Positions 16,146 to 40,986 of a stretch of DNA of 46,783 bases are shown piece by piece. The stretch is from a virus. A program made the position numbers and the translations under genes. The stretch covers positions 1 to 46,783 of the IMG/VR virus record IMGVR_UViG_3300036925_000003; one strand, 5' to 3'. The stretch's first letter is position 1. Every line of letters begins with the position of its first letter. The notes beneath the pieces were generated by a model that saw only the letters and a list, made by a program, of their open reading frames with translations, had not been told where the DNA came from and ran no database searches.

Positions 16146-17054
16146 ATGAACAAGACAAATATTTCCTACTTGACCCATACATGGAACCCCATCGCCATGA
16201 GGTGCTCGCGTATATCCGAAGCCTGTAAAAACTGCTGGCATCTGGCCATGGCCGACCGGCTGGCGAAGAACCCCACGATCAGCGATGAAAAGCGGGCGGC
16301 TTATGCCGGCACGGGGCCGCCCGTATTCGATTTTAATGAGATAGACGCTCCGTTGAGGTTAAATAAACCATCTGTTATTGGAGTTCAATTCATGGGTGAC
16401 GTGTTTCATTCCTTGGTGGATTATACCTGGTTTGAGAGCATCATGTTCAAGGCCTACGAAGCACCGCAGCACACCTATATTTTCCTCACAAAAAGGTCGA
16501 AAAACTGCAAGGTGTTCATGAATCATTTTGTTGAAAAATGGAAAGACAATCTCGGCGCACCGTTCAAAAACGTGATCGGCATGGTCACCGTCGAGAACCA
16601 GGAGATGGCCGAAAATAGGATCCCGGACCTGCTCACGTCTCCGTTTGCTGTGCGCGGGGTTTCGGTTGAGCCGATGCTGGGGGAGATGAATCTTAATGAA
16701 TATTTATGTGGATGGGAATCTTTCAACGTCGGGAAAAAGCTTGAATGGGAAATAAATCATGGTGTCGATTGGGTCGTCTGCGGTGGTGAATCAGGATCAG
16801 GCGCCAGGCCGATGAATCCGGAGTGGCCCAGGTCGTTGCGTGATCAGTGTGTGGCGTCCGGCGTTCCATTCATGTTCAAACAGTGGGGCCGATTCTGCGC
16901 GCCTGATCAAATGCCGCCCGATACATTCATGGCATGGGATTACCAGCATGGAACAGAAGGATGGAACCGGGATGAGTGGGACCGTTTCCCAGTCGGAAAG
17001 AATAAATCCGGCCGCCTGCTTGACGGCGAGCTGTGGGACCAACTACCATTTTAA
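16146..17054 (+). CDS. DUF5131 (phage Gp37/Gp68) protein
   Basis: This is a 302-residue protein from the ATG at 16146, which has GAGGATTG before it; the frame is open to 16101. It opens with ISYLTHTWNPIAMRCSRISE and ACKNCWHLAMADRLA, the conserved N terminus of DUF5131. This includes three cysteines (C-x7-C-x2-C) of a possible metal or iron-sulfur site. Further hallmarks are VQFMGDVFHSLVD, HTYIFLTKRSKN, VTVENQEMAENRIPDLL, WVVCGGESGSGARPMNPEW and FMFKQWG. The family is widespread in phages and mobile elements; I know of no settled biochemical role. It sits at the end of the recombination unit before a lipoprotein gene. Confidence 0.85.
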   Translation: MNKTNISYLTHTWNPIAMRCSRISEACKNCWHLAMADRLAKNPTISDEKRAAYAGTGPPVFDFNEIDAPLRLNKPSVIGVQFMGDVFHSLVDYTWFESIMFKAYEAPQHTYIFLTKRSKNCKVFMNHFVEKWKDNLGAPFKNVIGMVTVENQEMAENRIPDLLTSPFAVRGVSVEPMLGEMNLNEYLCGWESFNVGKKLEWEINHGVDWVVCGGESGSGARPMNPEWPRSLRDQCVASGVPFMFKQWGRFCAPDQMPPDTFMAWDYQHGTEGWNRDEWDRFPVGKNKSGRLLDGELWDQLPF

Positions 17055-17673: not shown

Positions 17674-18111
17674 TTATTGTTCGCTCATATAAATTGCAAG
17701 CCGCATCAGGATGTGGCGCCGTAGCGCGCTGAAGTCGCCCTCTCCGGCGTTCATGATGGCAAGTCGGGCCTCGCCCTGCAGTGCATTCCACCTGTCGATG
17801 GTCCGCTTCATGTCCTGCAGGATCTCCTTGATCTTGGCCTTGTCGTCTGGATTGGTCCTTGCGATGATGGGGGCATAGTCCAGATAGGTCTGCGCCGATT
17901 TTTCGTAGATCCCCAGGAAATCGTAATAGACCGCATCTGCGACCAGAATGGACCGCTGGGCGGCCGTCAAGGTGTTGTCATCCTGAATCCCGGCCGTGAT
18001 CTGCTGCGTTGCCGTTCCCTGGCCGACGCCCATGCCTGTGCATCCTAAAAATGAAATGGCGGCCATCAATGCGGTGATCATGGCGACAATAAACAATGAT
18101 TTCTTTCTCAT
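17674..18111 (-). CDS. Lipoprotein in lysis cassette
   Basis: This is a 145-residue protein with a basic start, a hydrophobic stretch and lipobox FLGC, so it is expected to be a lipid-anchored envelope protein. The mature part is helical (TAAQRSILVADAVYYDFLGIYEKSAQTYLDY, AKIKEILQDMKRTIDRWNALQGEARLAIM). A position between the holin-like gene and the end of the late unit would suit an outer-membrane spanin subunit or a late lysis factor; this is inference. GGGAGCG precedes the ATG. The start overlaps the preceding stop. Confidence 0.72.
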   Translation of the reverse strand: MRKKSLFIVAMITALMAAISFLGCTGMGVGQGTATQQITAGIQDDNTLTAAQRSILVADAVYYDFLGIYEKSAQTYLDYAPIIARTNPDDKAKIKEILQDMKRTIDRWNALQGEARLAIMNAGEGDFSALRRHILMRLAIYMSEQ

Positions 18112-18998: not shown

Positions 18999-19426
18999 GT
19001 CTCCCCCTGATAGATGCCCGTGCGCATCATTTTTGCCAATTCACCGGCCCGGCCTTTTACCTGGCGAGCCCACCGCGAGTTTTCCATTTCATCGGCGGCC
19101 AGGTCATAATTACCGGAACGAACGGCAGCCAGCATATTTTTGAAACCGCGCAACTTGTATAGCCCAAGATTGAAAAGCATATTTTTGATGACGTATTCCC
19201 TGACGGTGTCACCATCCTCCAGCTGCAACCCCAAAGATAGGTAATCAGTTTCCACGGATTTCAAATCGTGCCATAGGAGTTTTATGGCAACGGCCACGGG
19301 GATACTGGATCCCTCGGTGAAAGCGTGCCCCCACCCGGCCGTCAGCACACCCTCGGTGTCCTTGTAGACATGCCCGCGATACCCTTCATGGCGCATTATC
19401 TGATGGACAAAGTCGTCGTGGTTCAT
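18995..19426 (-). CDS. T4-type muramidase endolysin (GH24)
   Basis: This 143-residue lysozyme has Glu14 in RHEGYRG, Asp23 in YKDTEGVLTAGWGHAF and Thr29, with the E-x8-D-x5-T spacing of T4 lysozyme. It cleaves the MurNAc-GlcNAc bond of peptidoglycan. No signal peptide is present, so release depends on the holin. It is coupled by ATGA overlaps to the genes on both sides. Confidence 0.92.
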   Translation of the reverse strand: MNHDDFVHQIMRHEGYRGHVYKDTEGVLTAGWGHAFTEGSSIPVAVAIKLLWHDLKSVETDYLSLGLQLEDGDTVREYVIKNMLFNLGLYKLRGFKNMLAAVRSGNYDLAADEMENSRWARQVKGRAGELAKMMRTGIYQGET

Positions 19427-19815
19427 GACTTTCGGCTTTTTTTCAGGTGGTTTATGTCTGCCCGCATGGCGCCCATGCCCTCTGCCATGGTCAAGTGCAA
19501 CTCTCTGTGCTCTTTAAACTCTTTCCGCATCTCGATTATCAAGTCCGTTTGCCCTTTTTTTATATCGTCGAGCGCTACACTGTCGGCGGCAAGCCTTATG
19601 CAGACGGGGCAATTCTCGCGCTGCTCTGCGCAACTTCGCATAAACTGATCCCTGGGCATAAAATCCTTATCTCTTAATTTCTCAAGATCAGCACTCAATT
19701 TATCCACATCCTGTCCAGTTTTCCGCAGCATAAACCGGGTTATTCCAAACGAGCCTAAAATTGCTCCGAGTACACCGCCAATTGAAATGCCCGTTCTGAC
19801 TTCTTCCGGTGTCAT
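19423..19815 (-). CDS. Membrane-anchored coiled-coil protein
   Basis: This is a 130-residue protein with one N-terminal hydrophobic helix (ISIGGVLGAILGSFGITRF) and a long charged, heptad-like helix. A CAEQRENCPVC segment could bind metal or form disulphides. It ends in a basic tail. Layout and position just upstream of the endolysin fit an inner-membrane spanin or holin-antiholin, but the Cys motif is unusual for either. GGGGGAT precedes the ATG. Confidence 0.68.
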   Translation of the reverse strand: MTPEEVRTGISIGGVLGAILGSFGITRFMLRKTGQDVDKLSADLEKLRDKDFMPRDQFMRSCAEQRENCPVCIRLAADSVALDDIKKGQTDLIIEMRKEFKEHRELHLTMAEGMGAMRADINHLKKSRKS

Positions 19816-19858: not shown

Positions 19859-21970
19859 TTATTTCCACTCGCCTTCGCCCGGTCCCGCCTGCCCCTTGCC
19901 GGCCGTCGATCGGCCCTTTGACAGAACGGGTGTAGCGGTGGCGCCCTGGTCGGTGCCGATGATCAGGTTGGCCATCTCCCAATCCTGCGCCTCGGACAGC
20001 GGGTTTCCGCTACTGAGATACGGAGCCAGCGCGGCCTGGGCAAAAGGACTCCCGGTCTTCGTCCAAACAATGTTTGAATAGGACAGTACCGGAGTAGTCA
20101 TGTTGTCAACGTATATCTCCAGGACTCCGTTTTGGTCTGGAGCATCATACGTTATCGTATTTTGCACCACTACATATCTTATGTCGTGCCAAGTGCTGTT
20201 AGTGATTGGAGCAGTCCCAGTCGCCCACCATCGCCCGTTCCAGTAAGACCCATTGGACAAGTAGCATGTTACAGTATTTGAATTTCCTCCGGGGTTCGAC
20301 CCATTATAGCCTGCGTTCGCGTAGTCTCCATTACACCCAAACGATGCCCCCAAAAGAGAATTTGTTAAACTGGTAGACAGACTTGGGTCGATTTTCGCCC
20401 CATCTTGGGCGTATACCAAAGCGTCATTCGTCCGGCCTTCCAGGTATAAAGTGAAATTCGTTCGCGCCAGTTGATGATACGGGTCACTCGGGGACGAATC
20501 CTCCGAGGTTAAGAACAGCAGCATATGGTGGCTGACGTTTGTCGTGGCCCCATTGCCGACCCAATTATCGGAGTACTTCAGCTTAAACTGCACCCACAGT
20601 CTATCGGTGGGCGTAAACTGGAGCCGCATCGCGCCGCCGCCGTCCGGGGTCTTTTGACCCTGCGTGGACCATCGCGCCCGGAAGACATTGCTATCAAGCG
20701 TGGGGTCGTACACAAGCTCGACATCGGTATTATCATACCATCCTTGCGCTTCAAGTTCAGCTTTGCTCTGAAAATAGGTGGTGGTGATATTGATCGGTGG
20801 CGGCAGTTCCCCATCATTATCCGATATCGTGATGGTCGCCGAGCCAGACCCCGGCACGATATCGTAATTGGCCGAGGTGTCGATGGTCAATATTACTGTT
20901 TCATCTCCCTCGCTGAGCGTGCTGTCATCAATTACGGTTATCGGCACATCGACATAGGTCTCACCGTCGCCTATCGTCGCAGTCCCGGAAGTAGAACTAT
21001 AATCTGTCCCCTCTGTGGCTGTCCCGCTCATCGTGTAGGGAACATCTAAACTGCCGGAACTGGTATTGCGCGAGATGCGGAACGCTCCGGGATTGGGGCC
21101 TTCTTCGCCCGCAGTGCCATCCTGGACAGCCACCGATACCGTCGGCAGAGGAGATCCCCCGGAAAGCGGGCCGATGTAGCCCGTGGTGCTCAACGCAATA
21201 TCATCAAAATCCACATACCAGCAGTCCGTTGCACTTCCGTGGACATTGCTGCCGATGATAAATCCTGAAAACGATGAAGACCCGAATGTAACGTCGCTTC
21301 TATCGATCTTCAAATCGCCGTTTATCCACGCTTGGAATACACCATTGTCCCCACCATTTTCAGCTTTGCAATGGATATCAACTTCAAACCATGACCCATC
21401 AGAGGTATTACCCCCGTAGATACTACTGACACCACAATTCTGGCATTTGATCGTTATATCGTGGTCTCCGCTTTGAGTGTAATAATACATACTGTCGTCA
21501 GACAAGTACTGCGGAAGACATAGATACCCAATGTTGCTTAAAATGCCAGGAGATCCATGCAGATAGAACATTTTAAAAAGATCGATGCTTGAAAACGGGA
21601 ACCCGTCTTCAAACCTCACATAAGTACGGAACCAAAACTCCGTCTGGTTCGAAGTAAACATAAGATTGAGCCCGGTTCCGTTGCTGCCCTGGACTCCAAC
21701 CCAATGCCGGTATCCACGGCCACCGCCCCCGCTTGGATAATTAGCGGCGGAAGTAATCGCATCGTATTCGTTTCCACCGGTGGTACAGTTCCAATTACCT
21801 GTACCGGGGCCGATCCCATCACATCCGACTGCGGTGGTCGAGATTCCAGACGTTTGATCCCAAGCGTTGCAATCGAACGTCGATGTAAACGGGGGCGTCA
21901 CCGACGCCTGGGCGGCTACTGACACCAATAGGATAACGACGCAGGTAACCCATAGAAATATCTTCTTCAT
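19859..21970 (-). CDS. Secreted LamG-like/Calx-beta protein, fibre region
   Basis: This 703-residue protein starts at the ATG at 21970, which overlaps the previous stop. A Sec signal peptide (KKIFLWVTCVVILLVSVAAQA) is followed by a jelly-roll, lectin-like domain (about 25-235, with FWFRTYVRFEDG and WYVDFDDIAL). A Calx-beta domain follows (about 245-360, with GTDYSSTSGTATIGDGE and GDETVILTID, ending ISDNDG). A second jelly-roll domain (about 375-670) comes next, and a C-terminal tail KGRSTAGKGQAGPGEGEWK ends the protein. The domains suit carbohydrate binding. A signal peptide on a protein in the tail-fibre position is odd: it would be exported rather than built into virions in the cytoplasm. 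Confidence 0.78.
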   Translation of the reverse strand: MKKIFLWVTCVVILLVSVAAQASVTPPFTSTFDCNAWDQTSGISTTAVGCDGIGPGTGNWNCTTGGNEYDAITSAANYPSGGGGRGYRHWVGVQGSNGTGLNLMFTSNQTEFWFRTYVRFEDGFPFSSIDLFKMFYLHGSPGILSNIGYLCLPQYLSDDSMYYYTQSGDHDITIKCQNCGVSSIYGGNTSDGSWFEVDIHCKAENGGDNGVFQAWINGDLKIDRSDVTFGSSSFSGFIIGSNVHGSATDCWYVDFDDIALSTTGYIGPLSGGSPLPTVSVAVQDGTAGEEGPNPGAFRISRNTSSGSLDVPYTMSGTATEGTDYSSTSGTATIGDGETYVDVPITVIDDSTLSEGDETVILTIDTSANYDIVPGSGSATITISDNDGELPPPINITTTYFQSKAELEAQGWYDNTDVELVYDPTLDSNVFRARWSTQGQKTPDGGGAMRLQFTPTDRLWVQFKLKYSDNWVGNGATTNVSHHMLLFLTSEDSSPSDPYHQLARTNFTLYLEGRTNDALVYAQDGAKIDPSLSTSLTNSLLGASFGCNGDYANAGYNGSNPGGNSNTVTCYLSNGSYWNGRWWATGTAPITNSTWHDIRYVVVQNTITYDAPDQNGVLEIYVDNMTTPVLSYSNIVWTKTGSPFAQAALAPYLSSGNPLSEAQDWEMANLIIGTDQGATATPVLSKGRSTAGKGQAGPGEGEWK

Positions 21971-23748
21971 CGCCATTGCCCTTTGCCCGATGCGTTGCGG
22001 CCCTTGCCGGGGGATGTCCTGCCTTTTTGGGTTGTGGGCGTGACACCGTATTCTGACAAACCAAATCCCGCCCTGATCCATGGGTTGATCACGCCGGCCT
22101 CTAATGCCGGGTTCCAATTATATCGGCCTTGCGCTCGTTCTGCTGCTATGAATCCGTCTATTGTCGCGGTGCCGCCGATGTGGTCCATATAGGTATCAAC
22201 GTCTCTCGTAGCGTCCGTGAACGATACCTGCTCAAAGGTGGAATCGTCTCCGGTTGCCGTTGCCCATTGGGCGTCTGTTTTATCTACTCCAGCCAAATTA
22301 AAACGGGTGCCATCCGATTTGTCAGAATAGTACGAGTTTCCAGAAAAGGACCACTTACCAGCGGGATCATATTCAGTCGAAATTGTATAGCCAGAGTCAG
22401 CGCCAATTTGTATTTTATTGTTTTGAAAAACGTCGCCGGTAGCATCCGTGCCGCCGAAGTCATCTAACAATACCAGGCCCTTGCCGTTCACAAGGCCATA
22501 AACGATATTACTTGATATATTAACATTGTGTATTTTTTGACTGAACGCTATCGCCTGAACTTGAGTTAATTCTGATAATGGTTGATGAGCGAAAAGGTTA
22601 TTCGCTATAATCCCACTATCGATTGTTCCAAGCGCCATACCAAATCCGATCGGCCTATTGGTTGGTTGGGAGCGCCCAGTGTGTAATTGTATATTGTTTA
22701 TGATTAAAAAATATTCATAATCTGAGTTTGTTACAGTATCGCCTATACCACAGGTCATTTCGAATTCACCATCCACGAATAAATTATTATTCCATGTTGA
22801 TGATATAGTGGGAAGATCAGACGTGTAGTTGGTAAACTTAAACCCGCCCGAAGCGGAACGTAAAACTATATTTTCTTCAAGATTATTATAAGCAGAACTT
22901 TCGACGTAAACGGACTGATTGAATATAGACGCTTGCCCGATACCACCTGAATCAGCTTGAGAATACCACCCGTTATGATCAAAAATGCACTGATAAATTT
23001 CAATATTATTTGCACCAAAAGAATACAGACCATTTGAGCAATTTCCTCCTGGGTTACAATAGCTATCCAAAAAACTACACCGCCTGAACTGTATATCTAA
23101 AATGCCTCCATCTCCACGGCTATTGTTACTCACTAAGCTTTCGATAAAAAACCTGAACTTGCACCCTTCTATTAATATGCCTTCAGTCGTGGAGGTGTTC
23201 GGGTCAAGAAATATTCCTAACGCTCCGGTAGAATCTACAAACCCAGGATCAAGAGGATTTCTGGTGTACGCATAAAAATCAAGTCCGGATAAGGCAACAT
23301 AATGAAAATTTCTTGCCCTGAAACCGTCTTCGCCCCGAGGCGTTTTTAATATAGGGCACGCCCCGCTTGACCCATACGAACCTATCAATGCTGGCTCCGT
23401 AAGGCTACGACCATCAATATGTTGCGTTAATGAAGTAGTCCTCTGATCCGTAAATGTGTCCCCGCGTCGGAATAGAATCCAATCTGGATATCCGTCCCTT
23501 AAATTCGCAAACGCCGCGTCAAAAGTAGCGAAGGCGTTTTCTCCAGACGGCTGGAATGGGTCAGCGAAATCATCAGGAGCGTAAACTTGACCGGTTCCGT
23601 CGTTTCCCGCCGCAGACACATACATGATTCGGCTATCTGACGATGGAGTGAAAATTGTCCACCCCGATACATCTCTTGATAGATTTAAATGCCCCGCGAA
23701 TGCGGTTGAGCAGTAAAGTACCGAGAGTATTAAAATTAAATATTTCAC
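21967..23748 (-). CDS. Secreted right-handed beta-helix protein
   Basis: This is a 593-residue protein with a signal peptide (KYLILILSVLYCSTAFA) and then parallel beta-helix repeats. RIMYVSAAGNDGTG marks the start of the helix, and rungs such as GILIEGCKFRF, LDIQFRRCSFLDSYC and NIEIYQCIFDHNGW follow one another. Such folds occur in polysaccharide lyases and phage tailspikes. The C-terminal tail TQKGRTSPGKGRNASGKGQW resembles the tail of the next protein. No catalytic site can be named. It is coupled to its downstream neighbour by ATGA and lies one base from the upstream gene. Confidence 0.8.
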   Translation of the reverse strand: MKYLILILSVLYCSTAFAGHLNLSRDVSGWTIFTPSSDSRIMYVSAAGNDGTGQVYAPDDFADPFQPSGENAFATFDAAFANLRDGYPDWILFRRGDTFTDQRTTSLTQHIDGRSLTEPALIGSYGSSGACPILKTPRGEDGFRARNFHYVALSGLDFYAYTRNPLDPGFVDSTGALGIFLDPNTSTTEGILIEGCKFRFFIESLVSNNSRGDGGILDIQFRRCSFLDSYCNPGGNCSNGLYSFGANNIEIYQCIFDHNGWYSQADSGGIGQASIFNQSVYVESSAYNNLEENIVLRSASGGFKFTNYTSDLPTISSTWNNNLFVDGEFEMTCGIGDTVTNSDYEYFLIINNIQLHTGRSQPTNRPIGFGMALGTIDSGIIANNLFAHQPLSELTQVQAIAFSQKIHNVNISSNIVYGLVNGKGLVLLDDFGGTDATGDVFQNNKIQIGADSGYTISTEYDPAGKWSFSGNSYYSDKSDGTRFNLAGVDKTDAQWATATGDDSTFEQVSFTDATRDVDTYMDHIGGTATIDGFIAAERAQGRYNWNPALEAGVINPWIRAGFGLSEYGVTPTTQKGRTSPGKGRNASGKGQWR

Positions 23749-23749
23749 A

Positions 23750-24547
23750 TTACCACCCAGGGTCCGAGGTATAGAGTTTGAAATTATCTATTTTGTAAGA
23801 AAAGTCGTGTGTACCATCATGCAATGTGGTTGAATTATTCAGATCAAAATTGGTGGTTGTAATTGTGTCAGAATCTATACCCGCCGCAGAGCAATCAGAC
23901 ATGCCTGTGATGGACCCCTCAACAAGTCCATCTGACCCTCCAGAATCAGCGCCACCATCGGAATCTTTACGATAATGGTATCGAATTGTCACAGGTATAT
24001 CTGCCGACATTGATAACGCATTATTCAAACAGGCGTATTGTATCCCGCTATCTGTTTTGTAGCCTATATTGGCCAAGGCTAAATTTCCACTTGCATCTGA
24101 TTTTATCGTTACGATCGCACTCGTACCGTCAGTTAAAAGCACTATATTTCCGCTCGATTTAAAATTGTCTACAGCACTTATCTCAAACGTAAACTCAACC
24201 CACCACTCAGTAGCCGAAAATGACTCAAACGGATTGCCCGCAGCATTATTAATGCGAAGAAAAGTTATTTGATCGCTGCCTGATGTGCTGACAAGAACCT
24301 CACCGCCAGACACCGAACCATTCCCGAGGTTAAGATCCCACTCATCCCATGTCGCTCCCAAAGCAGAGCAACCACCGGCCGCGGCACAAGTGACATCCGA
24401 AGACCCTGGTGTGTTTGTGCTCCAATCTGTTTCGAAATATGGGACGACCGGAGCACCACCACTCGACGAAGCAAAAAACCACCCGGCGAAGGCAACGGCA
24501 GGGAGAAGCAGGACTATAGCAATTGTGGTAAGGAGTCTTTTCTTCAT
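23750..24547 (-). CDS. Secreted jelly-roll-like protein
   Basis: This is a 265-residue protein from the ATG at 24547, with GGAGG before it and a one-base TGATG overlap with the previous gene. A signal peptide (KKRLLTTIAIVLLLPAVAFA) is followed by beta-rich sequence (EWWVEFTFEIS, GNIVLLTDGTSAIVTIK, PVTIRYHYRKDS, YKIDNFKLYTSDPGW) resembling a LamG or concanavalin-type sandwich. It lacks the C-terminal tail motif of its two downstream neighbours. Carbohydrate binding is inferred from fold impression only. Confidence 0.72.
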   Translation of the reverse strand: MKKRLLTTIAIVLLLPAVAFAGWFFASSSGGAPVVPYFETDWSTNTPGSSDVTCAAAGGCSALGATWDEWDLNLGNGSVSGGEVLVSTSGSDQITFLRINNAAGNPFESFSATEWWVEFTFEISAVDNFKSSGNIVLLTDGTSAIVTIKSDASGNLALANIGYKTDSGIQYACLNNALSMSADIPVTIRYHYRKDSDGGADSGGSDGLVEGSITGMSDCSAAGIDSDTITTTNFDLNNSTTLHDGTHDFSYKIDNFKLYTSDPGW

Positions 24548-27500
24548 CACTTCACCGCCCTCCACAAGTAGGAGAAGATAACCGCATGCCCAGTCTCGGC
24601 ATACGCATTATCCAACTGGATATACAGTGTTTTGTCGCTCGCTATTGCCGAGCCCCCATTAATGTTGCTGGCCGTGGTCTCATAAGAGACGCCGGCGGTG
24701 GTGTCCAGGACATCGATCACTGCTGAATTGGCCGCGCTCACAAAGTCATCGGCGTATTTCAGGTCGCCAGCGAGTTCGGTGGTGGGGTCTGCGTCAAAGC
24801 TCAACCCCCACTGCCCGATGATCATCCCGTTGGGCGCCATCTGGCCGACCGAGAACGCAATGGGCAAGCGTTTGTTGGTCAGCGCGCCCACCGTCACGGG
24901 GTCGAACGGCTGGTGGGTGTAGTGCCAGGGGTTGGTCTCGTGTATATTCACCATGATTGCATCTGCCGATTCCGCTCTGCCGATCACCCAAACCGGGTTT
25001 TGAACCGGCATCGTCTCTGTGATACCGCTCGTCGTTGTTGGGTCAGTAGAGAGGTAAAGCTCTGCGCCGGCTGTCCAATCCCAATCGGTCGCATTGTAAA
25101 TCAAGCCTTTGGTAACAATACTGTTGGCCCCGGTGGCATCCGCCTTGAGCAACCCGGCTGGCTTCCGGTATGCCGCCGCTGTTTGGTCGTCCAGGTCGGC
25201 AGCCTCATACTCTCCATCACTCATCTCGGCCATCACCTGGCCAATGGCGGTGTTCGTTTCGCCGCTATCGACCGTGACGTTGAGTTCTTGCCCGGAAACT
25301 TGGCCATCTGTTGTGGCTGCTACGAGAGATGCCAAGTCAAACACTTGGTTGAACTGCATGAAAATATTTCCATCATTTTCGCCATCAACGATGGTCCAGA
25401 TGATATTACCATTCGAATCGCGATAAATCCTAAAATGATCTGTGGGAGTGCCGAAGGAGATTTCGCTGTCCGTAGCGCTCAGGCTCATGAGGTGTTGATA
25501 AGCCCCAAGGTCGATGGTCGCCGCGCCGTCGGCATCCCCAATATCGTTGAACTTGTAATTGGTGATGTTGGCGTCAACATACCCCTTAGTAACCAACTGA
25601 AGGTCGGATGTCGGATCGGTTGCCGGTCCCAACGGGTAGGAGCTAAATGTCTTTATCCCGCCTATCATCATGTCTTCAGATTCTATCTTATACGCCCAGT
25701 CCGCCGACATCGGAGACGTGGTCTGCCCATCCGCCGCAGTGCTGGATACATCAGCCTCCTTCAAAATCGTGGCGTCGGCTGGCTCATAAGCGACATCCTC
25801 CAAGGTCGTGCAAGCCACAGGTGATCCGTTGGCATCGGTACAGGCCACCTTTGACCCCGTAACTGCAACTCCCGACAAAGTCGTGGCGTCGGTCCATACA
25901 CCCCATTCATACTGGGCCGGCGTCCCGGTTGCGGACACATCGCCAGCGCCCGCAGGAGTATCGCAGGTGCCGTCAGATTTAAGGTATCCGGAGCATGATC
26001 CCGAAGCCCAAAGGGCGATGACATCCGAAGACGCTGCGCTTCCGAGATTATCACTACCAGAAACACTCCAAACGGTCGCCCAGTCCACACCCACGCCGGG
26101 CTCGGTGGTGGCGCCTGCGGTGTGGGTGCTGGTGCAAATATAATGCACTCCGCCATGAATAACGCTGGTGACATCAGCGGTGTAATCAAGGCCGGTGATC
26201 CATTTCTTCGTCACCTGAGCATTGGCCGCAGCCAAGTTTCCGCCGGAGGCGTGCACGCTGTTGAACGATGGGTTTGCCGATGTGCTTACGTCCTGTGCTC
26301 CAGATCCTGCCATCGTGCTAATATCGGATTTCCAATCAACAACAGTTCCGGCATTGGCGGATGATCCGGACTCATCTATGACGTCGCAGTCTATGTAAAG
26401 CGTAGCACCAGATTCAACATCCCATGCACTCGTCACATCGATATGATTGGCGCTTAGATATATCGTACCAGCATCAGCATTAACTGCGGTTCCAGCTCCA
26501 GCGCCTTCATTCAGAATATGCTTAACATGAACATGAACAGTCCCACCGACCGCAAGGCCAACCGCATATCCCGTCGAAGTAAGATAGATATCTTCTACTT
26601 CAGCATGAATATGCCCCGGTTGCGTAGTAAGACCAACAATTGCGTGATTCGTACCGCCATTTTCAATGGTTTGAACATGAGCAATCAATGCCCCGTCTTG
26701 AGCACATGCAAGGCCATTAGCCGTTCCATCGATCACAATTTTTTCTACGTCAACCCAAAATTGACCATCTATAGCACTATTTAAAAAAACCGCATTGCCA
26801 CTTGTAAGCTTTGTAATTTGACGGAACCTTACGCCAGCATCTGGGGACGTAGACGTAACTCCACCAATCAAATGCGCATTTGGCATATTGATAAAAACGT
26901 AACGAGGTACCGTAATATCTTCCGTATATTCGGCTGCATCATCTCCAGAAATAACGATGACGTTGTCGGATGCTGGCATAAGGGCGGATGCCGCCGTAAT
27001 TGCTGAACCGATCGTGAGTTTCGGCGTTGCTGGTGAAAGACCGTCGTTCCCGTCATCACCTGCTGACGTAACGAAAATTTCCTGACTGTAGGCGCCTCCA
27101 GAGAGCGCATCGATATTTGTTTTATCTCCGTCTGCAAACGCGCCCTCAGCCAAAACGTCTTGCTTGGTGGTTGGGTCATAACCATCCACCAGGTCTCCGT
27201 CAGCATTCCACACCGCAGTGTGGGTATCGGTGCCGGCGGTTCCGGTTATCAGCGTCCCATCTGCACCAGATTTCAAAGCCGCTGCGATCTCGGTTATGGC
27301 ATCCACCGCATCGGTGTCCAGCACATTGATCTCTCCATCATTGTCGGTGTCGAAAAGGTTAAAATAATCGAATAGGGCGTTTTTGCTTGCACCGTCAGTG
27401 TCTCCGTTCCACGCGGCACCGAATACAAGGTCTTCAATCGATGCAGCTCCGGCGCCACCGTCATTGTTTTCTATTTGGAAGGGAGAGGGCGCGCAAGGCG

Positions 27501-27624
27501 TTGTGGATGTTCCCACTGCCATTTCTGCGTCAGTGCATGCCCGGGGGCCATCTCCCGGCGGAGTCGCATGGGCAGCGCCCACCAAAAGACAGATGAATAT
27601 TATCGACAAGAAATACCGCTTCAT
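24547..27624 (-). CDS. Large fibre-like protein with signal peptide
   Basis: This is a 1025-residue protein from the ATG at 27624, with GGGGGG before it. The signal peptide is KRYFLSIIFICLLVGAAHA. Next come a region with calcium-like DTDNDGEIN (about 95) and a beta-helix section beginning IFVTSAGDDGNDGLSPATPK (about 190-440). A fibre-like section follows with GCSGYLKSDGTCDTP and repeated turn motifs (about 440-700), and then a C-terminal domain. The composition is typical of long tail fibres, and the place after the tail genes agrees. A Sec signal on a fibre is not expected in known siphoviruses. The end overlaps the next gene. Confidence 0.78.
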   Translation of the reverse strand: MKRYFLSIIFICLLVGAAHATPPGDGPRACTDAEMAVGTSTTPCAPSPFQIENNDGGAGAASIEDLVFGAAWNGDTDGASKNALFDYFNLFDTDNDGEINVLDTDAVDAITEIAAALKSGADGTLITGTAGTDTHTAVWNADGDLVDGYDPTTKQDVLAEGAFADGDKTNIDALSGGAYSQEIFVTSAGDDGNDGLSPATPKLTIGSAITAASALMPASDNVIVISGDDAAEYTEDITVPRYVFINMPNAHLIGGVTSTSPDAGVRFRQITKLTSGNAVFLNSAIDGQFWVDVEKIVIDGTANGLACAQDGALIAHVQTIENGGTNHAIVGLTTQPGHIHAEVEDIYLTSTGYAVGLAVGGTVHVHVKHILNEGAGAGTAVNADAGTIYLSANHIDVTSAWDVESGATLYIDCDVIDESGSSANAGTVVDWKSDISTMAGSGAQDVSTSANPSFNSVHASGGNLAAANAQVTKKWITGLDYTADVTSVIHGGVHYICTSTHTAGATTEPGVGVDWATVWSVSGSDNLGSAASSDVIALWASGSCSGYLKSDGTCDTPAGAGDVSATGTPAQYEWGVWTDATTLSGVAVTGSKVACTDANGSPVACTTLEDVAYEPADATILKEADVSSTAADGQTTSPMSADWAYKIESEDMMIGGIKTFSSYPLGPATDPTSDLQLVTKGYVDANITNYKFNDIGDADGAATIDLGAYQHLMSLSATDSEISFGTPTDHFRIYRDSNGNIIWTIVDGENDGNIFMQFNQVFDLASLVAATTDGQVSGQELNVTVDSGETNTAIGQVMAEMSDGEYEAADLDDQTAAAYRKPAGLLKADATGANSIVTKGLIYNATDWDWTAGAELYLSTDPTTTSGITETMPVQNPVWVIGRAESADAIMVNIHETNPWHYTHQPFDPVTVGALTNKRLPIAFSVGQMAPNGMIIGQWGLSFDADPTTELAGDLKYADDFVSAANSAVIDVLDTTAGVSYETTASNINGGSAIASDKTLYIQLDNAYAETGHAVIFSYLWRAVK

Positions 27625-27635
27625 AATCGTCCCCC

Positions 27636-28100
27636 CTATCGTACCATTTTGATATACATGTCCCAAGTGGCATTCGCCGTGTCCTGGTTAGCCACGGATA
27701 CCGTCAAGGTCGAAGTGACGGCCTTGGCCGGCATCGAGACAGTACCTGCTTTCGTGCCAGCCGCAGTTATCACGCCAACCTCCGAATAGAGTTCACCGCC
27801 GAGCGCGTCCGTGATGGTTACGTCGGCGGCATCCGGGGCTGTTCCGCCGGCTACGGTCCAAAATTCCCACAAATAAAAACCCATGTACTGATAGGTTTTC
27901 TCCAGGCCAGCCGAAACCGCAGATGCATCCACGTCAGTGTCGGCAACGGATCCATCCACCGCGCTGCCGGTACATGCCAGTTTAACGACCAGCACCGATC
28001 CATCGTTCGAAAGGTAATACTGTGATTCAGTGCAATCCGCATAGGCCGCGGGGGCGAACAAAATCACTGCTATGGCCAGTAGAATAAAACGTTTGATCAT
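27636..28100 (-). CDS. Secreted small beta-rich protein
   Basis: This 154-residue protein starts with a signal peptide (IKRFILLAIAVILFAPAAYA) after a GCAGGAGG ribosome site. The mature part is beta-rich with two early Cys (DCTESQYYL, VVKLACTGSA) that may form a disulphide, as fits an exported protein. It ends MYIKMVR. It is the first of five consecutive exported proteins in the fibre region. No family is recognised. Confidence 0.72.
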   Translation of the reverse strand: MIKRFILLAIAVILFAPAAYADCTESQYYLSNDGSVLVVKLACTGSAVDGSVADTDVDASAVSAGLEKTYQYMGFYLWEFWTVAGGTAPDAADVTITDALGGELYSEVGVITAAGTKAGTVSMPAKAVTSTLTVSVANQDTANATWDMYIKMVR

Positions 28101-28115: not shown

Positions 28116-28403
28116 CTATGTCGGATTTTCAAGCGCATCAAGTCTTTGCTCTACGCTGTTTTTAAATGCCAAAAAATCATCCCTCATTGATTGCAATATC
28201 CCGGTTATTTCGTCGCTGCTGCCGGATCGCCAAACCGCGCCGGTCATGCCCTCATCTATGATATTGCTGCCATAAATGCGGTTTGCCTCTACGGGTATTA
28301 TCAGCCATTGCCCAGAAATGGCTTGGCTCCTGGCCTGGTCTGGGTCGTCGAATACGCCGCGGGCCTCTATCTTTCCGTTTATCTGTTTTGCTAATATAAA
28401 CAT
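28116..28403 (-). CDS. Small tail-region protein
   Basis: This 95-residue soluble protein has no signal peptide. It has a mixed beta start (FILAKQINGKIEARGVFDD) and a C-terminal helix (LQSMRDDFLAFKNSVEQRLDAL) that may form a coiled coil. Similar small proteins stand next to fibres as chaperones or fibre-linked subunits; that role is inferred from position only. The ribosome site is weak. Confidence 0.62.
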   Translation of the reverse strand: MFILAKQINGKIEARGVFDDPDQARSQAISGQWLIIPVEANRIYGSNIIDEGMTGAVWRSGSSDEITGILQSMRDDFLAFKNSVEQRLDALENPT

Positions 28404-28410
28404 AATCGAC

Positions 28411-29220
28411 CTATTCTATGTAAAGGTTATACCCCATACAATAAGCATTTGTCGAGCCATGCCCGCTATTCATGATAAGGGAAACTTGATGATGTCCAGG
28501 GGTGGCAGAAGAAACGTCAAGGTTGGCGCTATTTATCCATGTCGGTGAAACGGCGGTTGTTTGATTGTTTGATGATGTGCCCACCCCGGAAATAGAAAAA
28601 TGCATCGTTGCCAATCCAAATCCTGAGTTTTGCAAGTAGAGTCCCGATGCCATCCTCATGGTTTCCGATCCATCCGGGATATAAACATATGTGCTACCGA
28701 CAACACGGTTGGTTGTATCCACAATGGAAAACAAGGCACTGCCATATCCGGTATACCCGCCCTGCCCGCTGGCGATGGAGTTGCGGAACGGCACAAAGTT
28801 TTGTCCGTTCAGGCCGTCGTGCTTGTGGCCCTCCGTATAATTTATAAGGTCAAAGAAAAACATATAGGTGTCGCCAGACAAAACGCCATCGGCCGCCGGA
28901 TCATCGCCGGTCAGCGTGAAAGTTGTGGCATCATTATCGTCTATGGCGTACATATTGCCGGCCGCCGCTCCGTCGACAAAAATTACCGTTTGGCCAATGT
29001 GGGCATCGACCGTAAATGAAGCCCCTGTATCAGTGCATACCCCGGCCCCGCTTGGGTCGCTGGTCAGTGTTCCGCTAACGCCCGTGTAATATGTGCGGAT
29101 GAGCATCTGCTCATAGTTTTTACGGAATACTGACATCAGAAGTTCATTCACTCCGCTGTCGGCGTCCGTCTGCCCTTCCTGGATTAAGCTGATCGCATCC
29201 GATGTTGAAACAAATCCCAT
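28411..29220 (-). CDS. Tail-tip or fibre-base protein
   Basis: This 269-residue protein has no signal peptide. The N terminus is helical (SDAISLIQEGQTDADSGVNELLMSVF). A beta-sandwich-like section (residues about 45-125) includes VIFVDGAAAGNMYAIDDND, followed by HKHDGLNGQNFVPF and a beta-rich C-terminal domain (VVGSTYVYIPDGSETM, PGHHQVSLIMNSGHG). It lies between the tail hub and the exported fibre proteins, so it may link the tail tip and the fibres. AGGTGAT precedes the ATG. Confidence 0.68.
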   Translation of the reverse strand: MGFVSTSDAISLIQEGQTDADSGVNELLMSVFRKNYEQMLIRTYYTGVSGTLTSDPSGAGVCTDTGASFTVDAHIGQTVIFVDGAAAGNMYAIDDNDATTFTLTGDDPAADGVLSGDTYMFFFDLINYTEGHKHDGLNGQNFVPFRNSIASGQGGYTGYGSALFSIVDTTNRVVGSTYVYIPDGSETMRMASGLYLQNSGFGLATMHFSISGVGTSSNNQTTAVSPTWINSANLDVSSATPGHHQVSLIMNSGHGSTNAYCMGYNLYIE

Positions 29221-29228
29221 TTTATCAC

Positions 29229-30881
29229 CTATGGTGCTATTAAATGTTCGTCATCATTGGCCGCTCCGAGATCCCCTGAGTTGTCGGATATATATCCCCA
29301 CAATCTTTGCTCGGCAGTAGCATTGTCATAGTCATCGTAAACAACAAAGTCTCCGGCGTCAGGGGTCAACCCCATGGCCGAAGTCGTTATCAAACCCGTC
29401 GAAGTATTGACGTTCGAGATGGTGATATTGGAGACCCTCGTCCGCATTCTACTATCAAGAATTTTAACGACAGGCGATGCCAGGTTCGCATACTTGGCGG
29501 CATCGGCGGTGGAAACATTAAACGATGTACCGCCGACTCCGCTGGTAACGGTCATCGCTGGAGATATGCCCCGGTATTGCCCGTGGCCATATTCCGTATC
29601 GAGACAACTGAACTGCACAAAACCGGATACCCAATTTACCGTTCGGTTGATGATCTGCATGCGGCGGGAAGTTATCCCCCTGCTGCCGTTCGTAAGGTCA
29701 GGAACGCGGGAATGGGTGATGTCGGCGATGTCCCCGGCCTCTGATAAATACGAACTGAAAAAGCACTTCACTTTGAGGGCGTTGGGGGGCGGATCGGAGA
29801 ACCGCAAAAGTATTGACTTCCTGCGCCTTTCGATAACATCGGCCGCGAATGATGCCATGGACGATGGCGCCAAGCTGGTATGCAGGCCCTTGCTTTTGAT
29901 CTTGAGCGACGTGGATCCGGGCCCGCGATGGCTGATTGAATCCGTGTCCAGGTAGACGGCTACAGTATCATATTCATCATCAACGTAATCATAGTTGTAG
30001 TGAAATTCGGTGTGGTTTATCATCTGCTCAAAACCAGCCGACCACTCAGGCACGCCCATGATATTTGATTCTGTCAGCTGCAGGGGATAATCGGCGGAGG
30101 CAAGCACGGGCTTGTAGGTGATCATTGATAACTTGCCCTGGCCATCGATTGTTAGAAAGGCGTTGGTGACCGCCTTCAATAGCTCAACCTCGATGAACTC
30201 TTTCGCCTTGATCGGTCGCGTGACCGGTATTTTGACATAGTGGGTGTTGCCTGGGTAGTAGGTGTCCCGGATGTTTTCTATCGCGCTGATGTTTATGTAG
30301 CTTTCATCAATTCCCGCACCATCGGTCGAAATGTATCGGTCGTAATCCCCATTGGTGCCGGTGCCCGTCGAGGTCATCAGCGACAACATCACATTGATCA
30401 CATTTCCCTGGACCGTGATCGGGGTGTCTTCCGTTGCCGTTGAAAACAATTCTTTCTGCAACCACTTTTTAACATCGGTGACCGCGAAGGAATAAATCGA
30501 TCCATCCTTGTCGGCCAGGTCAGTGACCGCGCCGGCGCCAACGGACAGCATGTCGGCCTCGGCCATTCCAAAATAGCCCGCGAGAATTTCAACGTCCTTG
30601 CGGTGCCAATTGTACGCGTCTGCTCCGAGAAGCGCACTCACTTCTCCATTAACGTCGAGGATGTCGATTGCGTAGGATGCAATACTTGCCTTGCCAAGCT
30701 CCGGCTGAATCGATTGGGCTCCGCCGCTGATGTTGACGAGATACTGCTTCAGGGTCCCGGTGGGGCTTGTGGGCGGCAGGTTGCAGAAGTGCGTTGAAAC
30801 ACCAGCGAACTTGACCAGGTACATCGGCGTCTTTGTCGCCTCTGAATGGTATGCATCGAAGCTGGCGTTTGTGGTGAGCAT
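29229..30881 (-). CDS. Tail hub-like protein
   Basis: This protein has 550 residues. It begins FDAYHSEATKTPMYLVKFAG and has a beta-rich N-terminal half (VNISGGAQSIQPELGKASI, AYNWHRKDVEILAGYFG) with long helix-beta segments later. The position after the tape measure and distal tail genes, and the size, fit a baseplate hub or tail-associated protein of siphoviruses. No peptidase or lysozyme motif is visible. The start overlaps the previous stop as TAATG. Confidence 0.7.
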   Translation of the reverse strand: MLTTNASFDAYHSEATKTPMYLVKFAGVSTHFCNLPPTSPTGTLKQYLVNISGGAQSIQPELGKASIASYAIDILDVNGEVSALLGADAYNWHRKDVEILAGYFGMAEADMLSVGAGAVTDLADKDGSIYSFAVTDVKKWLQKELFSTATEDTPITVQGNVINVMLSLMTSTGTGTNGDYDRYISTDGAGIDESYINISAIENIRDTYYPGNTHYVKIPVTRPIKAKEFIEVELLKAVTNAFLTIDGQGKLSMITYKPVLASADYPLQLTESNIMGVPEWSAGFEQMINHTEFHYNYDYVDDEYDTVAVYLDTDSISHRGPGSTSLKIKSKGLHTSLAPSSMASFAADVIERRRKSILLRFSDPPPNALKVKCFFSSYLSEAGDIADITHSRVPDLTNGSRGITSRRMQIINRTVNWVSGFVQFSCLDTEYGHGQYRGISPAMTVTSGVGGTSFNVSTADAAKYANLASPVVKILDSRMRTRVSNITISNVNTSTGLITTSAMGLTPDAGDFVVYDDYDNATAEQRLWGYISDNSGDLGAANDDEHLIAP

Positions 30882-31483
30882 TAGATGAGCTCCTCGAAGG
30901 AGAAATTATACCGGTAATAATAATCGCTGTCAGACTCCTCTATACCTGTCCGCCTGGGGGTAAAGTTTTTGATGGTCGTCCTGACGGATGGCCAGTATCC
31001 GTAATGCTTGAACGTATCGCCGCTTGCGTATGAGTTCAACAGATTACTCTCGGCTGTCACCGAAACCCCGGCGCTTATGGAGGCGATCTTGATGCCCTCG
31101 GCCTCATACAGATTATCCGCCGCCTTGACAAAGCAGTTATCGCCCACTGCAAGCCCGCTGGTACTCGTGAGCGGGATTACTTTCTGCCCGGATGCCGCCG
31201 CCCCGTCCAGCGTCGTTGATGCCGTGTTGGACGAATCAGAGGCAAAAGAAAAAGTCTTGCCGCTGCTCGCCCATTGCCACCATGCAAGCCAAAGATAGAT
31301 GTAATCATCCTCGCTAAAGAACCCGCCGCAGTTTATCTGGCCACGCTTGAATAGGGTGACCGTTTCAACGGCGCCGCTCATCGCCTCATTGACGTTGTCT
31401 TTCTTCATGGTGTTCTGGATGGTCCCATCATCGTCCAGAATAAAATCTATATTGTTTCCGTTCCAGGTTATGCGCGCCGTCAT
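30881..31483 (-). CDS. Distal tail-like protein
   Basis: This 200-residue protein has a distal-tail-like start (ARITWNGNNIDFILDDDGTI) and aromatic core segments (YIYLWLAWWQWASSGKTFSF). A small inserted beta module (GQKVIPLTSTSGLAVGDNCF) occurs near the middle, and the end returns to RTTIKNFTPRRTGIEES. It directly follows the tape measure gene and overlaps it by ATGA, the usual place for the distal tail protein. Confidence 0.72.
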   Translation of the reverse strand: MTARITWNGNNIDFILDDDGTIQNTMKKDNVNEAMSGAVETVTLFKRGQINCGGFFSEDDYIYLWLAWWQWASSGKTFSFASDSSNTASTTLDGAAASGQKVIPLTSTSGLAVGDNCFVKAADNLYEAEGIKIASISAGVSVTAESNLLNSYASGDTFKHYGYWPSVRTTIKNFTPRRTGIEESDSDYYYRYNFSFEELI

Positions 31484-33459
31484 ATCAGCCCCCCGGCCTG
31501 CCCGGCGTACTTGATTGTGACATCCCGCTCATCCGCCGCGTCGTTTATTATGCCGATGACATAATCAGCAGTCTCCTTGTCGTTCAATGGGCTGTTGATA
31601 TTGATGACCGTCTGGCTTGCCTGCTGCTGCTGGGCGTTGACATCCCGCCCGGTCCTGGTGTTTGAGATGCTATTCAGATCCGTTGGGTATGATATCCCAG
31701 AACCACCACCCGCGCTTACCCCGGGTTGCCGACCGCCACCGCCATATTGGGTGGACGCGATCGCGCTGATCTGCGCGGCCGTCGCTGCGATCGATGCCGC
31801 TGTATAGGCCGCAGCAATCGCAGGCGCGTAGGGACCGCCCACGCTCATGCCAGCGTTCCAGGCGGCCACGGCGGCCGAGATGCCGGATATGGTGGCCTCT
31901 GACAACCGATATGCCTTTTGCACCTTGAATGCCGTCTCATTGTTCTTGGCATAGATGTCCAGGGCATATTCTGCATCGCTGGTCGCCTTCTTCAGCGCCT
32001 GCCGGTCAAGGTCGCGGATATAATCGTTCTTCTGCTTGTTCGCGTCTATGATGGACGATATCAAAGCCGCTTCGATATCGAAACTGTTCCGGGAGTATTC
32101 TTCTTGCTGGGCAAGTCTCTCGTCGATGAAATCCTGATATCTATTGTACTGGTCCTGATAATCCAGTTGCTCTTTATCGGTTTTCAAGCTGGCAAACGTG
32201 AGCGGGTTTAGCTCAGTATTTTTCGCATCTTCAATAATCTGCTTTTGTAGCGCGGCCAGCTGTGCATAGGTGTCGACCTGCTCCTGGTTGGGTCCTGACG
32301 GAAGTTGATCCTTGGTGACCGGTGCCAATAGATCTGTCTGCCCAGAATATTTATCGAACCCTGGTGTATTGGCATCGATTTTACCGGTGAAAGTTTTACC
32401 GCCCGGAGTTGACCTTGCTTCTAACTCGGCCTCTCTTTGGATAGATTTCATCAAACTTGCTTGCGGGCTATTCGCCGCCAGGGCTCCGGCTGCCGCACCG
32501 ATAGGGCCTCCGAGCTTTCCGCCTATCACCAGACCACCTATAGCTCTCCATACCTCGGGCGGTACCTTGGATATCGTCTCGATCAAAGACTTGGCGCCCT
32601 CGGCTGCATCACGTAATCCGCTTGCGAATTTCTTGACCCCTTGCTGGAACTCCTCTCCCTTTATTCCATCCGTTATTCTTTTCATCGCCTTGGCAAGCTC
32701 TGGCAATAGGGCCTGCCCTACGGCCGCCTTCAGGTCTTCGACGCCGGCCTTGAACCGCCTCACTTCATAGGCATAGGTGCCCATGGATCGCGCGGTATCT
32801 CCAACGGCAGCCTGCGTTCCCTTGACGATTAGATTGAATGCGGCCTGTGCTTTGTCGGCGACGCTTATTTCATCTTTCGATCTTGCCAGCCCTGAGTTGA
32901 GGGCCTCTTGCTGAACTGCGGCGACATTTAAGACGACCCCATATTTTTTCATCGTCTCGTAGTTGCCGGATAGTGCAGATTGAATATCGTCCAGAACCTT
33001 TGCGGTCGGTTTGTCTTGAAAACTACCGATGTCTGCTGATAGCTTAACGATTTCACCAGATAAATTGGCTGCGGCTTTAGAATTCAGCCCCATTGGGACA
33101 AGCAGGTCCTGAATGCTCGCCAAAAATTGCCGTGCTTCCCTGGTGCTTAAATTGTATCCGTCAACGAGCTCCTTGGCAAATTTGTTGGCTACATCAATTT
33201 GGTCTTTGAACACCACGCCGAACTTCTGGGTTGCTTCCTGCAGAGAACTCGCCGCGTCAATCGACTGCTTCATGGCAAATCCAAATGTGCCAGCAAAGGC
33301 CGTGGCGCCCAGGGCGATCTTGCTGAAGCTGATCGCCCCTATGGTCTTCTGAAAGCTGTCTGACGAGCTCTTGAGAAGCTTTTCGGACAGCTTCAGGTCC
33401 TTGCGCAGCGCATCGAGCTTGGCGCGAATTTCGACATATGCGGATCCGACTTTAGGCAT
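31480..33459 (-). CDS. Tail tape measure protein
   Basis: This 659-residue protein has a coiled-coil N terminus (YVEIRAKLDALRKDLKLSEK), an amphipathic and hydrophobic middle (ALGATAFAGTFGFAMKQSIDAA) and the common tape-measure segment VGDTARSMGTYAYEVRRFKA. Gly/Ala-rich helices lie near 520-570. At about 1.5 angstrom per residue, the usual rule for this family, the tail would be near 100 nm. The start lies inside the end of the frameshifted tail-chaperone gene. Confidence 0.9.
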   Translation of the reverse strand: MPKVGSAYVEIRAKLDALRKDLKLSEKLLKSSSDSFQKTIGAISFSKIALGATAFAGTFGFAMKQSIDAASSLQEATQKFGVVFKDQIDVANKFAKELVDGYNLSTREARQFLASIQDLLVPMGLNSKAAANLSGEIVKLSADIGSFQDKPTAKVLDDIQSALSGNYETMKKYGVVLNVAAVQQEALNSGLARSKDEISVADKAQAAFNLIVKGTQAAVGDTARSMGTYAYEVRRFKAGVEDLKAAVGQALLPELAKAMKRITDGIKGEEFQQGVKKFASGLRDAAEGAKSLIETISKVPPEVWRAIGGLVIGGKLGGPIGAAAGALAANSPQASLMKSIQREAELEARSTPGGKTFTGKIDANTPGFDKYSGQTDLLAPVTKDQLPSGPNQEQVDTYAQLAALQKQIIEDAKNTELNPLTFASLKTDKEQLDYQDQYNRYQDFIDERLAQQEEYSRNSFDIEAALISSIIDANKQKNDYIRDLDRQALKKATSDAEYALDIYAKNNETAFKVQKAYRLSEATISGISAAVAAWNAGMSVGGPYAPAIAAAYTAASIAATAAQISAIASTQYGGGGRQPGVSAGGGSGISYPTDLNSISNTRTGRDVNAQQQQASQTVININSPLNDKETADYVIGIINDAADERDVTIKYAGQAGGLI

Positions 33460-40095: not shown

Positions 40096-40986
40096 CTAAT
40101 TGGTTGATGGGGCCAACATCTCGGCCCGGGTCAGCAGCTCGGCAACAGTGTCCTTTTTCGCCGGCGGTGCAACGTCGCGTTGGTCGTCGGTTTCGGCATG
40201 GTTCTCGTCCGGCTGTTCGTCTCGAACATCGTTCTTGAATCCTTCCGAAAGGATCTTTTTCGCCTCTTTATTGGACAACCCGGCGTCCCGCAGGGCTTTT
40301 TCAATGTTTCGTTTGGAAAAATTGGAGTTTCTTTTCTCGAGGGCTTCGGGGGCGTGGTCGAAAATGGTCAGGTCATAGCTGCCCGTAACCGGTTCCCCGT
40401 CATAGATCGCATCGATGAGGCCGGCAGCCTTTGCCTCGGCGGCCGTGAACCATGTCTCTTGGTCCATCCAGCCGGCCGCTTCGGCAACGGTCTTGCCGCT
40501 CTTTTTGGCATAATCAGCGGCGATGGATTCGTTGATCTTGCCATGCAGGGATATCTCTTTGTTGAGGTCGTTGACCACCTGCAACAAGTCGTCCTCATTG
40601 AAATATCCGAAGATGTCGATACCTGACATGGCCTTGTGGACCATGATGAACCCGCCGTCGACCATCTCGATGGAGTCGGCACCCATTGCCAGAAAAGAGG
40701 CGGCAGAGGCGGCCAGGCCGTCAATATGCGCAATCACCTTGGCCTTGTGCTGTTTGATGGCTGTCTGCATGGCCCGGGCCGCGAACACATCCCCGCCCTG
40801 GGAGTCGATGCGCAGGTGGATGGTCCCGGCGTCGATAGCGTTGAAGTCCTTTACCCATTGCTGGTGGTCAACACCGAACCACCCGCCGATGTCTCCATAC
40901 AGGTAAACCGTGGCCTCGTTGGCCTTGTTTTGAATTTCGCTTTTATTCGACCTGGACCGGATTGATATTTTTCTGGCGATTAGCAT
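40096..40986 (-). CDS. ClpP-like prohead protease
   Basis: This is a 296-residue protein from the ATG at 40986; a GTG at 40992 overlapping the portal stop is also possible. The ClpP fold is clear: TIHLRIDSQGGDVFAARAM, then catalytic Ser in GLAASAASF (Ser94) and His in GFIMVHKAM (His117). The C-terminal third is helical and charged with ALRDAGLSNKEAKKIL. It should cut the capsid scaffold domain during head maturation. Confidence 0.9.
   Translation of the reverse strand: MLIARKISIRSRSNKSEIQNKANEATVYLYGDIGGWFGVDHQQWVKDFNAIDAGTIHLRIDSQGGDVFAARAMQTAIKQHKAKVIAHIDGLAASAASFLAMGADSIEMVDGGFIMVHKAMSGIDIFGYFNEDDLLQVVNDLNKEISLHGKINESIAADYAKKSGKTVAEAAGWMDQETWFTAAEAKAAGLIDAIYDGEPVTGSYDLTIFDHAPEALEKRNSNFSKRNIEKALRDAGLSNKEAKKILSEGFKNDVRDEQPDENHAETDDQRDVAPPAKKDTVAELLTRAEMLAPSTN

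Follow-up and report, generated by a model that had tools for sequence, protein, structure and literature searches.

Genomic setting of the cassette

The stretch of DNA analysed here in full, referred to as the window, comprises the 46,783 bases of a virus record and, judged from its gene content, comes from an HK97-type siphovirus. It encodes a terminase (43749-45443), a portal (40989-42284), a head protease (40096-40986), a major head protein (38749-40077) and a tape measure protein (31480-33459). After the tape measure gene, the tail-tip position is occupied by a 550-aa protein without a signal (29229..30881, minus strand), which has no family or phage match: a single-protein IMG/VR scan gave no relatives, and tblastn against 50,697 phage records gave nothing. 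Between the tail tip and the genes under study lies a signal-free 269-aa protein with an HKHDGLNG motif (28411..29220, minus strand); a family match was sought for it and none was found, and it is a candidate conventional small fibre or adaptor. Directly upstream of the cassette, a signal-free protein of 95 aa is encoded at 28116..28403 on the minus strand.

The cassette itself consists of five consecutive late genes on the minus strand, running from 28100 down to 19859 and tightly coupled, here called g1 to g5. The earlier note had described five genes with their own ribosome site or a coupled start; they are present there, and their starts and overlaps have now been located. The first of them, g1 (27636..28100, 154 aa), starts at ATG 28100 behind the ribosome site AGGAGG, and its predicted signal MIKRFILLAIAVILFAPAAYA (28038-28100) precedes DCTES, leaving a mature part of 133 aa. 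After a gap of 11 bases, the modular fibre gene g2 (24547..27624, 1025 aa) starts at ATG 27624 with AGGGGGG upstream, and its signal MKRYFLSIIFICLLVGAAHA (27565-27624) is followed by TPPG. The stop of g2 shares an ATGA with ATG 24547, the start of g3 (23750..24547, 265 aa), whose signal MKKRLLTTIAIVLLLPAVAFA (24485-24547) precedes GWFF. One base past the g3 stop, GTG 23748 opens g4 (21967..23748, 593 aa), with the signal MKYLILILSVLYCSTAFA (23695-23748) before GHLN. The stop of g4 again shares an ATGA with ATG 21970, the start of g5 (19859..21970, 703 aa), whose signal MKKIFLWVTCVVILLVSVAAQA (21905-21970) is followed by SVTP. Thus, stop and start overlap or lie one base apart at three of the four junctions. 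The open reading frame list gave TTG 27666 and TTG 22117 as the starts of g2 and g5; both were rejected in favour of the ATG codons above.

The downstream neighbour of the cassette is a protein of 130 aa that has a single membrane segment at its N-terminal end (19423..19815, minus strand), holin-like by position and with no firm family match. It is followed by a phage lysozyme (18995..19426, minus strand; PF00959, E 3e-9; PHROG endolysin), which has no signal according to our rule, and by a lipoprotein with an FLGC lipobox (17674..18111, minus strand), a possible spanin part. The cassette therefore occupies the fibre slot, after the tail tip and before the lysis genes.

Export signals of the five proteins

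Signals were called by a fixed rule, which asks for a net-positive n-region, an h-region of at least 8 residues without charge, and agreement with the -3/-1 rule. All five cassette proteins are called as Sec/signal-peptidase-I substrates, with scores of 5.99-7.71, a basic n-region, an h-region of 14-16 residues, and a suitably spaced signal-peptidase-I site. Among the remaining 54 window genes, scores were obtained only for the lipoprotein and for one weak false call (3.09). After shuffling, the five N-termini satisfied the rule, whatever the score, just 4-9% of the time, and scores of at least 5 were reached by 35/1240 and 35/1035 genes in other phage loci, a background of about 3% that is approximate, since the two sets (some 2,275 genes in total) come from partly overlapping loci and a crude gene caller. 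A chance origin of the run was rejected, as about 1.5e-6 runs of five would be expected in 59 genes. When the rule was applied to phage lambda as a control, only lom, known to be exported, was called, and J and stf were not. The basic residues, hydrophobic core and Ala-x-Ala-like site that the earlier note had seen on all five proteins thus stand well above background. It is very probable that g1 to g5 are exported and cleaved, and they are most likely true Sec substrates.

What the cassette encodes

The clearest fibre in the cassette is g2. Its residues 151-262 match the tail fibre of Vibrio phage D479 with 31% identity, and its residues 651-687 carry the motif GIKTFSSxPxGPATDPTSDxQLxxKxYVD, common to Streptomyces phage tailspikes and shared with the phiRKBJ001 tailspike and PHTowN gp30. 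In all three phages, the genes lie at a similar genome position. However, none of these fibres has a signal peptide, whereas g2 does, and three further signal-bearing genes come after it. When all five proteins were tested for fibre modules, these were found in g2 and none in g1, g3, g4 or g5.

Two families were recognized in g5. Residues 107-231 correspond to Polysacc_lyase (PF14099; E 3e-9, 37.6 bits against a cut-off of 29.9), a partial match covering model positions 60-181 of 210, and residues 297-386 to Calx-beta (PF03160; E 8e-10, above the gathering score), a calcium-binding domain type. Both domains are joined in one phage protein, a predicted lyase. Matches to it were few: tblastn against the 50,697 phage records returned three records only, aligned around Calx-beta, and a single-protein IMG/VR scan returned none.

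The start of g4 (YVSxxGNDGTG...RRGDT) resembles that of pectate-lyase-type beta-helices, which makes a right-handed beta-helix plausible for this protein. It has no Pfam and no PDB match, its beta-helix repeat pattern did not rise above shuffled sequences, and an AlphaFold model from a three-sequence alignment (pLDDT 33.6) was too low in confidence for a fold search. The single-protein IMG/VR scan and tblastn against the same phage records found no relatives. The same IMG/VR and tblastn searches were empty for g1, which has no Pfam, PHROG or phage match and a single-sequence AlphaFold model again too low for a fold search (pLDDT 47.9), and g3 has no family match and no tblastn match among those phage records.

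Even though g4 and g5 are otherwise unrelated, both end in a common 24-residue Gly/Lys tail, TPxxxKGRxxxGKGxxxxGxGxWx (21967-22041 in g4, 19859-19933 in g5), a likeness that none of 20,000 shuffles equalled. It is possibly an anchoring or docking tag. Other GxG-rich tails are found at the C-terminus of the g4 homologues in the phages L075 and L076 described below.

The domains proposed in the earlier note were a beta-helix, Calx-beta, a jelly-roll and fibre repeats. Calx-beta and the jelly-roll (PF14099) hold for g5 and the fibre modules for g2, while the beta-helix of g4 stays at the level of plausibility, with no backing from Pfam, PDB or AlphaFold. Its description of the mature parts as receptor-binding domains fits the fibre and carbohydrate-active modules of g2 and g5; for all five proteins it is overstated, because g1 and g3 match no family and the fold of g4 is unproven.

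Recurrence in uncultured phages

Similar arrangements were found in the uncultured phages L075 (IMGVR_UViG_3300025009_000218) and L076 (IMGVR_UViG_3300025000_000379). A 93-residue module of g2 (residues 429-521) pointed to L075, where it is 66% identical to a module of a signal-bearing protein; next to this protein come another signal-bearing gene and a g4 homologue, itself behind a hydrophobic signal. L076 was then reached through the g4 alignment. Aligned across some 590 aa, the g4 homologues of L075 and L076, both behind signals, are 27% identical to g4 (E 1e-33 to 1e-35). The run in L076 comprises a signal-bearing fibre-type protein, a small gene as in L075, the g4 homologue, a lipoprotein, a signal-bearing gene and an exported SNase. 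The order of fibre, small protein and g4 family is therefore identical in the window, L075 and L076, even though g3, the small protein of the window, has no detectable kinship to that of the other two. The SNase inside the exported run of L076 (L076:13135-13599) is of the staphylococcal nuclease type (PF00565, E 3e-17) and has a signal peptide; it is a possible exported nuclease against extracellular DNA or the DNA of superinfecting phages.

In a protein comparison of the compared sequence, the window has only g2 and g4 in common with L075, and only g4 with L076. Between L075 and L076, four cassette-region proteins are common (51-94% identity) and otherwise one 55-residue fragment. Because these phages share almost nothing beyond cassette proteins, the cassette appears to move between unrelated phages.

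A third uncultured phage, L102 (record G030), encodes a signal-bearing 854-aa fibre. Beside it, L102:11610-12434 encodes a protein whose N-terminus (SRRKF) is Tat-like and which contains the GH16-like motif EIDVME; a Pfam search returned nothing for it and so did not confirm GH16. Among 19 terminase-related records inspected, some of them incomplete, the signal-bearing fibre pair was seen only in L102, and the trait is therefore uncommon. Scans of GTDB contigs with g4-family and L075/L076 profiles gave no bacterial host or prophage, the second scan being a poor test, with its patterns inside the signal peptide.

Cultured Tunturiibacter phages

Signal-bearing fibre-region genes also occur in cultured phages of Acidobacteriota, Tunturi_1 and Tunturi_4. 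The latter (PP885687) was reached through a weak match of the L102 fibre. In this phage, signals are carried by gp113, annotated as 'tail protein', by gp114, annotated as 'virion structural protein', and also by gp111 ('tail fiber', score 4.44) if translation is taken to begin at an in-frame TTG upstream of the annotated GTG. The N-terminus from this TTG (PP885687.1 gp111, L118:5321-8416) is very like that of gp113, and the annotated start of gp111 is probably wrong.

In the podovirus Tunturi_1, five of the six consecutive genes between a tail protein and the endolysin are signal-bearing (gp12, gp13, gp14, gp16 and gp17), including the annotated tail spike; among them, gp13 scores only 4.12 and the signal of gp14 needs an internal ATG start. 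Tunturi_2 retains all of these signals, that of gp17 with three changes that preserve its character, and its gp14 is annotated as a pectin lyase. In Tunturi_3, which infects the same host strain as Tunturi_1 (X5P2), no signals were found in the tail genes examined, and the trait is therefore not imposed by the host.

Tunturi_4 gp114 (L118:10263-12569) is 50% identical to residues 390-1002 of Tunturi_1 gp17 (L120:19474-23028). As far as the sequences tell, this is a recent exchange of a predicted exported fibre-region protein between a siphovirus and a podovirus, unrelated phages of one host genus.

As in the window, the podoviruses Tunturi_1 and Tunturi_2 and the siphovirus Tunturi_4 have runs of large signal-bearing fibre-region genes with stop-start overlaps, which in Tunturi_1 and Tunturi_2 also lie between a tail protein and the endolysin. 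Contrary to the window, the Tunturi cassettes have known Acidobacteriota hosts and are much richer in cysteine. No sequence homology was found between the Tunturi and window cassette proteins, and a g4 profile detected no relationship to Tunturi gp114 and gp17. The earlier note had proposed a search of related phages for the same arrangement, which is now seen in phages unrelated to that of the window, L075, L076, Tunturi_1 and Tunturi_2. The consulted parts of the description of the Tunturi phages leave signal peptides unmentioned and name proteomics only as future work (PMC11924767).

Cysteine content of the mature proteins

Taken together, 21 mature cassette proteins from six phages contain 1.51 cysteines per 100 residues, against 0.35 in the signal-free structural and tail-region proteins of the Tunturi phages and 0.77 in those of the window. 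The cysteine count is even in 14 of the 16 mature cassette proteins with at least two cysteines (P ~0.002 under a coin-flip model). Since it is also even in 11 of 18 signal-free proteins, this parity contrast is suggestive rather than strong. In the window alone, g1 to g5 have 32 cysteines, about 1.2 per 100 residues against 0.77, a small enrichment, and two of the five counts are odd.

Precedents in known phages

Tailed phages are known to use the host Sec pathway before lysis, as in the case of Sec-exported endolysins (Lys44 of fOg44; SAR endolysins) (PMC6116005). These share the route of the cassette but are lysis enzymes, not fibres.

The other precedent is lom of phage lambda, a lone exported moron of the outer membrane rather than a fibre. 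Encoded between J (tail tip and host specificity) and stf (side tail fibre), it occupies a position akin to that of the cassette. The earlier note had taken it as a premise that siphovirus fibres are made without Sec signals; the premise needs the caveat that an exported protein does lie in the lambda fibre region, even if lom itself is not a fibre. It is also a single gene without fibre modules, whereas the window has a coupled multigene set: a lom-type moron would be one stand-alone exported gene, and here there are five coupled ones.

No description of Sec-exported tailed-phage fibres was found in the full-text literature, a search limited to open-licence papers and thus weak evidence of absence. 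The literature leads phiCbK, JC1, VarioGold, pf16, Circe and SD286 gp38 were checked and found irrelevant. Sec endolysins and exported morons are thus already known, while a fibre or depolymerase module with an export step was not found described.

Proposed export and role of the cassette

We propose that the cassette would be a translationally coupled late set in which fibre proteins stand beside carbohydrate-binding and depolymerase-type ones. All five would be exported by the host Sec machinery and cleaved by signal peptidase I, and folding of the mature proteins, probably involving disulfides and calcium, would take place in the periplasm. Upon opening of the envelope by the adjacent lysis module, the periplasmic proteins would be released, and at least g2, probably together with g4 and g5, would dock onto tails assembled in the cytoplasm, at or after lysis. 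What the sequence shows directly are signals, coupled genes, fibre and carbohydrate modules, a cysteine pattern and recurrence among unrelated phages. Export and folding in the periplasm accord well with this anatomy, and release at lysis is suggested because the lysis genes adjoin the cassette. Taken whole, with an exported cassette in which at least g2, and probably g4 and g5, are receptor-binding or depolymerase proteins of the virion, this explanation is one that we adopt tentatively, a little short of calling it probable. Docking to virions is its weakest part and is held just as tentatively; it is favoured because fibre modules occur in the exported set, which lies in the fibre slot and takes up most of it in Tunturi_1. 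Possible too, if somewhat more doubtful, is that these cassettes represent an undescribed class of mobile module, in which Sec-exported, disulfide-bonded periplasmic fibres complete fibreless virions at lysis. Counting against the main reading are the weak cysteine enrichment in the window itself and a parity not clearly different from that of signal-free proteins.

The earlier note had put forward two roles, a secreted surface-coating or matrix-degrading set and fibres joined to virions outside the cytoplasm; both remain the leading ones, and sequence cannot separate them. According to the former, the proteins would build up in the periplasm, spill at lysis and loosen extracellular polysaccharide, so that progeny could leave the microcolony or biofilm, and would never be part of virions. 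We regard such free secretion as a serious but rather doubtful possibility. It is nearly as good as docking, for two reasons: some cassette members resemble plain enzymes, and a small fibre candidate without a signal (28411-29220) is present in the window and could be the receptor-binding protein. The polysaccharide-lyase-type domain of g5, the GH16-like protein of L102 with its Tat-like N-terminus (even though Pfam does not confirm GH16), the pectin lyase annotation of Tunturi_2 gp14 and the exported nuclease that ends the L076 run all agree with it; the nuclease, a signal-bearing plain enzyme beside the cassette, also counts against docking. However, a free enzyme would have no need of the fibre-type modules found in g2 and in its positional counterparts in L075 and L076, and in Tunturi_1 it is the fibre position that is filled by signal-bearing genes.

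Exported proteins with fibre-type binding modules could also act as receptor decoys, for which Llp of phage T5 is the model: they would bind receptors on the infected cell or its debris, blocking superinfection and the loss of progeny to debris. The export signals fit this action, but the proteins would have to cross the outer membrane before lysis, and neither an outer-membrane anchor nor a secretion partner was seen. Five large proteins would moreover be a costly means, and we consider decoys unlikely. Still less likely would be host-acquired morons or auxiliary metabolic genes, either lom-like surface proteins or secreted CAZymes feeding the host. The position of the exported lom between J and stf and the apparent horizontal mobility of the cassette speak for them; the single coupled run of five genes and the fibre modules of g2 speak against them, and no integrase was found in the tested set of window genes, a weak argument against lysogenic conversion. 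Alternatively, the five signals might stay uncleaved and anchor fibres of cytoplasmic assembly to a membrane or, since insertion of a hydrophobic N-terminus there is conceivable, to the tail hub. This we hold to be very improbable, given the complete signal-peptide architecture of all five N-termini, with well-spaced signal-peptidase-I sites, N-termini of the same kind in unrelated phages, and the cysteine pattern.

If the fibres are virion parts, as in the preferred docking explanation, tailed-phage assembly would have a periplasmic branch, and cytoplasmic fibre maturation would not be a general rule. If the proteins act free, phages would possess sets of depolymerases dedicated to secretion and timed to lysis. 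In both cases, annotation may misread receptor-binding proteins in many uncultured phages, with wrong starts or as a 'host secreted enzyme', and recombinant production of such fibres would need an oxidising compartment. With the trait in Tunturi_1, Tunturi_2 and Tunturi_4 but not in Tunturi_3, which shares its host strain with Tunturi_1, the question is directly testable in culture.

Other observations in the window

Away from the cassette, a 223-aa open reading frame at 571-1242 has a restriction-alleviation Lar domain at its C-terminal end (PF14354, E 1e-8), and the gene at 16146-17054 strongly matches DUF5131 (PF07505, E 2e-66).
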